Source of the DNA: Flavobacteriia bacterium
Lineage (GTDB): Bacteria > Bacteroidota > Bacteroidia > Flavobacteriales > Weeksellaceae
NCBI GenBank assembly: GCA_015999765.1
Contig: JAECQR010000001.1
Coordinates: forward strand, 558,001 to 622,000
DNA: 64,000 nucleotides
Direction: 5' to 3'
In this document: positions 49,355-49,877 of the stretch, in pieces
How the letters are laid out: each line of letters opens with the position of its first letter
Position numbering within the stretch: the stretch's first letter is position 1
Position numbers and translations under genes: made by a program
Notes under the pieces: model-generated
Database searches by the model: none
Told to the model about the DNA's origin: nothing
The model's input: only the letters and a program-made list of their open reading frames with translations

Positions 49355-49417
49355 TGTTGGAGGTTATGGAGGTTATGGAAGTGATGGAAGTGATGGGGGT
49401 TATGGAGGTTATGATGG
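49355..49417 (-). repeat. Seven 9-bp tandem units between four-helix-bundle gene and wzt
   Basis: Minus strand: CCATCATAA CCTCCATAA CCCCCATCA CTTCCATCA CTTCCATAA CCTCCATAA CCTCCAACA then ATG of wzt. Confidence 0.9.
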
Positions 49418-49777
49418 TTTGTTTTTTATTGATTTGATGAGGTTTGAGAGCATTATTCTAATGAAAATGATCTTGTTGCGAATTTCTTCTGATTCATTTA
49501 TATAATTCAGGTTTTGGGCAATTTCATACTGTGTTTCCAGTTCTGCTAAGGAGCCAAGTGAAATGTACAGATATTGAAGAAGTTCTCTGTTTCCTTTTCT
49601 GGCGCATCCTTCTGCTATATTTGAAGGAATTGAAATGGCACATCTTCGTATCTGTGAAATAAGTCCGTATTTTTCATTTTCCGGAAAGCAATCTGATAGA
49701 CGATAAATTTCTGTGACTAAATCCATCGATTCCTGCCAAACTTTCAAATCTTTATGAGATCTTATGTCGCTATTCAT
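49409..49777 (-). CDS. Four helix bundle protein, S23/IVP (23S rRNA-intervening-sequence protein) family
   Basis: HKDLKVWQESMDLVTEIYRLSDCFPENEKYGLISQIRRCAISIPSNIAEGCARKGNRELLQYLYISLGSLAELETQYEIA. Confidence 0.93.
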   Translation of the reverse strand: MNSDIRSHKDLKVWQESMDLVTEIYRLSDCFPENEKYGLISQIRRCAISIPSNIAEGCARKGNRELLQYLYISLGSLAELETQYEIAQNLNYINESEEIRNKIIFIRIMLSNLIKSIKNKPS

Positions 49778-49814
49778 TTGACAAATTTTATCTGATATTA
49801 AATATTTTTCACAT

Positions 49815-49877
49815 CATCACTAACATATCCATCTTTACTTCTATAACTTTCATCACCCTCTTCACTTCATCACCTCA
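49815..49877 (-). repeat. Degenerate 9-bp repeats, inverted relative to 49355-49417, between wzm and four-helix-bundle gene
   Basis: Minus strand: GTGATGAA GTGAAGAGG GTGATGAAA GTTATAGAA GTAAAGATG GATATGTTA GTGATGATG. Confidence 0.65.

Follow-up and report, generated by a model that had tools for sequence, protein, structure and literature searches.

The S23 cassette between wzm and wzt

The analyzed window is a 64-kb stretch of DNA from a Flavobacteriia bacterium, in which the spacer between the operon genes wzm and wzt is occupied entirely, from stop codon to start codon, by a cassette that consists of an S23/IVP gene and two repeat tracts (Table 1). All three genes are encoded on the same strand, with wzm upstream and wzt downstream of S23; the 5′ arm of the cassette directly adjoins the wzm stop codon and the 3′ arm ends only a few nucleotides short of the wzt start codon. 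The product of the middle gene matches the PF05635 profile (E = 3e-37, 127.4 bits, curated cut-off 33.8), TIGR02436 (E = 1e-36, 125.3 bits, curated cut-off 24) and its relative of known structure, PDB 2gsc (E = 8e-28); the entries 2gsc and 2rld include five chains each. In the preliminary description of this locus the gene had already been assigned to the S23/IVP family, as these profiles bear out, with a length of 123 amino acids that has to be corrected to 122.

Table 1. Features of the wzm-wzt region, in coordinates of the window
Feature	Position	Strand	Basis
wzm, ABC-2 permease, 282 aa	49878..50726	-	ORF; PF01061 match
5′ spacer, degenerate 8-9 bp tandem arm	49778..49877	-	sequence, arm alignment, closing stem in fold
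S23/IVP four-helix-bundle gene, 122 aa	49409..49777	-	PF05635, TIGR02436
3′ spacer, 9-bp tandem arm	49355..49408	-	TRF score 77
wzt, ABC ATPase + Wzt C-terminal domain, 413 aa	48113..49354	-	PF00005, PF14524

The 3′ tract is the top tandem array of the 64-kb window according to TRF, with 6.2 copies of a 9-bp unit (49358-49413); a period of 9 bp is unusual among S23 loci. On the S23-sense strand, the best-paired part of the 5′ arm (49824-49868) is G-rich and that of the 3′ arm (49360-49404) is C-rich, and alignment of the former with the reverse complement of the latter yields 31 matches in 45 columns. The local complementarity of the locus is 13.0, compared to 11.5 and 13.5 for the 95th and 99th percentiles of gene flanks in the same genome. 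Taken alone, this value is moderate, that is, unusual to a limited degree, and the case accordingly rests on the comparison with other S23 loci. In the predicted RNA fold of the whole cassette (z = -3.4), which none of 100 shuffled sequences equalled, both tracts build the closing stem in the minimum free energy (MFE) structure as well as in the centroid, so that the proposed complementarity of the two flanks and the expectation of better folding than in shuffled controls both held. None of 400 spacer pairs drawn at random from the genome equalled the arm duplex (-32.4 kcal/mol), but 26 of 400 composition-shuffled 3′ arms did.

Paired tandem arms at S23 loci in diverse bacteria

S23 genes outside rRNA generally have paired arms. 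Inverted tandem arms flank most of the sampled S23 genes in the host genus and across Bacteroidota, as well as most of those sampled in Planctomycetota, Acidobacteriota, Proteobacteria, Clostridia, Chloroflexi, CPR and Cyanobacteria. The genome that contains the window (hereafter G000) encodes nine S23 genes, flanked by paired tracts in which the repeat unit changes between loci. Over 77 loci from 19 genomes, the complementarity of a locus's own arms averages 15.9, versus 8.6 for swapped partners, and 62% of the loci exceed 13.5, the 99th percentile for other genes of the genome. The same separation is found in the phylum-wide sample of Bacteroidota (13.8 for own and 8.2 for swapped arms) and in other phyla (19.5 versus 8.0, p = 2e-23, 46 loci), with other genes on the latter contigs at 8.1. 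TRF scores of at least 38 are reached by 39 of the 77 downstream S23 flanks, compared to 19 of 802 other gene flanks of the window's own genome, only 3 of which attain a score of 50. In MFE folds computed family-wide, about 25 bases of the 5′ spacer are predicted to pair with the cognate 3′ spacer and 9-11 with a swapped one.

Inverted periodic flanks were thus found where the preliminary description had suggested looking for them, at other S23 loci, but neither its GTKATGRAR motif nor its 9-bp period is general: the repeat unit is locus-specific and the usual period is 7 bp, sometimes 8. Periods of 7 and 8 predominate in Bacteroidota, and the cross-phylum loci have a period of 7 in 45 and of 8 in 3 of 48 cases, with the inward-reading strand G-rich in 42, against 3. 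The two most variable heptad phases are not adjacent (a 5+2 design) more often than expected by chance.

S23/IVP genes were detected in 156 of the 197 sampled Bacteroidota genomes, about four fifths, and none was found in the phage collection. Clear arms are present at five of the six named S23 loci on cyanobacterial plasmids. Among these loci, Anabaena sp. 90 has AGGTGAC arms between cas6 and cas4, and plasmid pNe_5 of Nostoc edaphicum has near-perfect TAGGGAG arms around an S23 gene located between nrdB and nrdA, which encode ribonucleotide reductase subunits; this gene is antisense to its neighbors and is among the few clear cases of opposite orientation.

Operon junctions, patchy distribution and selection

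S23 is co-directional with both neighbors in 154 of 162 loci, of which 149 come from the host genus and which fall into 49 site clusters; counts over orthologous loci are not independent and site-level summaries were used where possible, with site clusters, gene calls and start codons assigned by simple automatic procedures. Judging from the neighbor sequences, the occupied junctions include groES-groEL, carA-carB, trpE-trpG, suf genes, rmlB-rmlA and thiolase-acyl-CoA dehydrogenase. The fit to the spacer is tight, the 5′ arm beginning a median of 1 nt past the upstream stop codon and the 3′ arm finishing a median of 7 nt ahead of the downstream start codon. In strains with an empty carA-carB junction, carA ends with FKAK followed by the stop codon; in several strains in which the junction is filled, carA reads into the arm and gains from it a new C-terminus and a new stop codon.

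At any given junction the cassette is patchy. In agreement with the earlier statement that wzm and wzt are normally adjacent, S23 is absent from 25 of the 28 readable congeneric wzm-wzt junctions and present in three, and is therefore not fixed at this site; the nearest genome, with a wzm 98% identical to that in the window, has an empty spacer of 35 nt. The cassette through the S23 stop codon is 100% identical between G000 and G033, whereas identity is 83% in the 150 nt of wzm next to it, a pattern which indicates that the cassette is shared horizontally between the two species. Parts of wzt show mosaic identity between the same two genomes, which makes recombination of the flanking DNA a likely vehicle. 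The 3′ arm of G033 contains three 9-bp units more than that of G000, and the copy number differs in G003 as well; given that the cassettes of G000 and G033 are otherwise identical, the arms slip faster than the gene mutates.

The median dN/dS among S23 orthologs is 0.067 (77 pairs, 19 sites), and the value for the window gene and its G003 ortholog is 0.07; the protein is under strong purifying selection. Some copies are dead, with internal stops. The S23 gene in the trpE-trpG junction of G000 contains an in-frame TAA between intact arms and is probably a pseudogene. A copy in the carA-carB junction of G035 is internally deleted and has arms that do not match, the 5′ arm being of the CAGATGT and the 3′ arm of the AAGANTC type, and is thus a dead hybrid. 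Upstream of an RsmD-like gene in G000 (contig C9), the 3′ end of S23 recurs within the 5′ arm, with a G-rich tract on one side and a C-rich tract on the other, an arrangement reminiscent of the deletion of a tandem copy.

The earlier proposal of a mobile unit is supported by the patchy presence, the empty sites and the horizontally shared cassette; active transposition was not seen, the closest pair of S23 genes inside one genome being 66% identical. Filled and empty junctions at both wzm-wzt and carA-carB differ across the entire spacer, and no target-site duplication could be delimited.

Relationship to known elements

The 23S rRNA intervening sequences (IVSs) of Leptospira, Coxiella and Brucella and the operon cassettes have in common an S23 ORF enclosed by complementary, stem-forming termini, and in the predicted fold the window cassette has termini of this kind, which close a stem around the S23 ORF. 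The Coxiella IVS is reported to be selfish, to have a terminal stem of 28 bp and to be cut by RNase III; upstream of its S23 ORF are GACAGAT heptamers the number of which varies by strain, and its S23p is probably not produced and seems expendable (PMC4990558). Variable heptamers next to the ORF link the Coxiella IVS with the operon cassettes, and rRNA IVSs are sporadic and horizontally shared (PMC4990558), as the cassettes are. The likeness to rRNA IVSs, pointed out in the preliminary description, is strengthened by these heptamers and by the stem-like arms of other S23 genes. The operon cassettes differ in that the host transcript is an mRNA, interrupted between two cistrons, that both arms are tandem arrays with a locus-specific unit, and that their S23 is under strong purifying selection, unlike the Coxiella S23p. 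Whereas rRNA IVSs are located in helix 9, 25 or 45, the window cassette lies between wzm and wzt, and no rRNA match was detected at 14 other S23 loci. For S23 with heptamer arms in operons, the open-access literature yielded only the paper on the Coxiella IVS (PMC4990558).

Several repeat families resemble the arms. In the trnL group I intron of Nostoc, the P6b stem consists of heptamers of Class I (TDNGATT) or Class II (NNTGAGT) that undergo changes in copy number and wholesale swaps of the repeat class, and the origin of which is stated to be unknown (PMC4476775). Like the S23 arms, these are complementary 7-nt repeats on both sides of a stem; unlike the S23 cassettes, they lie inside an intron and no S23 gene is described (PMC4476775). 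TAACTGA repeats are found next to start codons in Beggiatoaceae, Cyanobacteria and Bacteroidetes (PMC4679880), and GGGAATC repeats in Xanthomonas and Nostoc, in Xanthomonas often as convergent pairs that form inverted repeats (PMC4692102). Both are, like the arms, intergenic 7-nt tandem repeats adjacent to start or stop codons (PMC4679880, PMC4692102), and a term search of the two papers found no S23 or enclosed gene. The Nostoc trnL stems, the TAACTGA repeats and the paired GGGAATC repeats look like arms without an S23 gene and might, by this analogy, offer a lead.

The Avd protein of diversity-generating retroelements belongs to the same four-helix-bundle superfamily as S23. The window S23 matches the Avd profile NF033474 weakly (20.2 bits versus a cut-off of 80) and thus falls outside Avd. 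An obligate reverse transcriptase partner was considered but is not supported, as no RVT_1 match was detected in G000 with its nine S23 genes. With insertion sequences and MITEs, the S23 cassettes share inverted ends and patchy intergenic insertions but differ in that their ends vary by copy and they carry no transposase; terminal inverted repeats common to the copies are lacking, given that arms swapped between loci do not pair.

Nature of the element

The preliminary description of the locus is confirmed as an observation and partly supported as an interpretation. In our assessment, the cassette is probably a mobile intervening sequence, an "IVP element," that persists where breakage of the transcript is harmless, such that rRNA IVSs and operon cassettes constitute one class. 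It would comprise the S23/IVP gene and left and right arms of short tandem repeats, mutually inverted and with a unit of usually 7 bp, here 9. The arms would pair in the operon transcript as a long imperfect stem, looping out the S23 message, and, by analogy with 23S rRNA IVSs, RNase III could cut this stem in the mRNA. A break in an mRNA between two cistrons, like a break in rRNA at certain helix tips, would do little harm, and the near harmlessness of both would explain the survival of the element in these two kinds of place. The S23 ring, which in the Xanthomonas relative of solved structure is built of five four-helix bundles, would most likely bind the repeat arms of its own element. Spread would occur mainly when the surrounding DNA recombines; occasionally the element would jump to a new junction, and, judging by RVT_1, this would not require that the same genome encode a reverse transcriptase. 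Several findings weigh against this reading: the results on arm pairing given below, the probable expendability of S23p in Coxiella, the absence of any fresh transposition, the lack of a target-site duplication that could be delimited and the 9-bp period of the window locus.

The arms follow the ancestry of S23. Orthologs at one site share arms; between sites, arms are more similar the higher the S23 identity, going from a background of 7.2 to 8.8 at 55-65% and to 13.8 at 65-80% identity, the last value resting on five pairs. At carA-carB, there are two S23 subclades and two arm types, each type on both sides of the gene. Two other origins of the arms were considered and rejected: derivation from the ends of the flanking genes, to which similarity was the same for own and swapped arms, and new synthesis at each insertion, as S23 genes that are related have related arms even when their sites differ.

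The two arms of a locus are inverted copies in register with one another, scoring 20.3 in the best register compared to 15.4 when shifted by one or two units. Arm mismatches show no G.U enrichment in the sense RNA; if anything, the reverse holds, with 63 G.U versus 87 A.C pairs (site-averaged) and 42 versus 50 in the cross-phylum set, and antisense arm duplexes are slightly stronger than sense ones. Compensatory co-evolution of arms is not seen among close orthologs, for which cross-species pairing is as good as pairing within species. Taken together, these two results mean that the signal does not show selection acting on mRNA pairing; the lack of G.U enrichment does not favor selection on an mRNA stem, and G.U tolerance as a mark of such selection was not found.

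This last result, along with the in-register copying of the arms beyond a shared consensus and their travel with S23 to other sites, would suit an element that acts at the DNA level, in which the arms would be terminal inverted repeats for transposition (cruciform or hairpin ends), S23 a putative DNA-binding accessory protein and the RNA stem a by-product. However, the copies do not have arm sequences in common, in contrast to terminal inverted repeats recognized by a single transposase. Moreover, the element encodes no transposase, the bias toward the sense orientation is strong and there are no recent copies within a genome, and we regard this alternative as unlikely. Another possibility, which we consider rather improbable, is that S23 is a self-binding regulator that helps the host, a pentamer for which the repeats would form a multivalent binding site and which would control the mRNA of its own operon. 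Such a role would agree with the strong purifying selection on S23, with the five chains in solved relatives and the pentameric structure of the S23 protein XCC0516 (PMC4990558), and with the dependence of repeat units on the S23 lineage, but a regulatory role that is conserved is not suggested by the patchiness at any one junction or by host operons that are unrelated to one another. Ordinary slippage, by which intergenic tandem tracts would arise anyway, with S23 simply lying beside them, is exceedingly improbable: although tracts occur in some S23-free spacers (L083, L084, L087, L090 and atpA-atpG) and heptamer repeats without a reported S23 exist (PMC4679880, PMC4692102), it is contradicted by the own-versus-swapped complementarity across phyla, by the excess of TRF scores of at least 38 in downstream S23 flanks, by the scarcity of comparable S23-free tract pairs (about one in 298 spacers) and by the lack of resemblance between the arms and flanking gene ends.

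Arms without S23 and wider implications

S23 is a small gene known hitherto chiefly from the extra segments of rRNA; under the reading as an IVP element, the rRNA intervening sequence appears to be a single instance of a far more widespread traveling cassette. A broader proposal, which we advance tentatively and hold to be possible, somewhat short of even odds, is that S23/IVP elements are a distinct and nearly universal class of mobile intervening sequences with self-matching heptad arms that evolve with S23; within this class the rRNA IVSs would occupy a single niche, and the orphan heptamers of cyanobacteria, Beggiatoaceae and Xanthomonas would be arms that remained after S23 was lost. The S23/IVP family is functionally uncharacterized, and a fixed anatomy would extend the biology of rRNA IVSs to mRNA, give several families of heptamer repeats that lack an explanation an origin open to testing, and supply a candidate ligand for the S23 pentamer. 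It would also flag many genes annotated as "four helix bundle protein" in essential operons (groES-groEL, carA-carB, suf, trp and rml) as traveling elements rather than operon members.

The de novo scan of 298 spacers of the window's own genome gave about one clear S23-free arm pair, in the spacer between atpA-like and atpG-like genes (G000:C10:312055-312140), where GTTGATGGTTTTGGTTGG faces CCAACCAACAACCGACAACC across a loop of approximately 15 nt with no S23. This pair has the look of a cassette from which the gene has been lost, or of a precursor; the sampled relatives likewise showed no S23 at the atpA-atpG-like junction. Tracts are present also in some of the S23-free wzm-wzt spacers. In one of these, L083 of genome G040, complementary tandem arms surround a short sequence that is not S23 and contains GATTCCTTCGCTGCGCTCGGAATGACA, and this sequence looks like a dispersed repeat.
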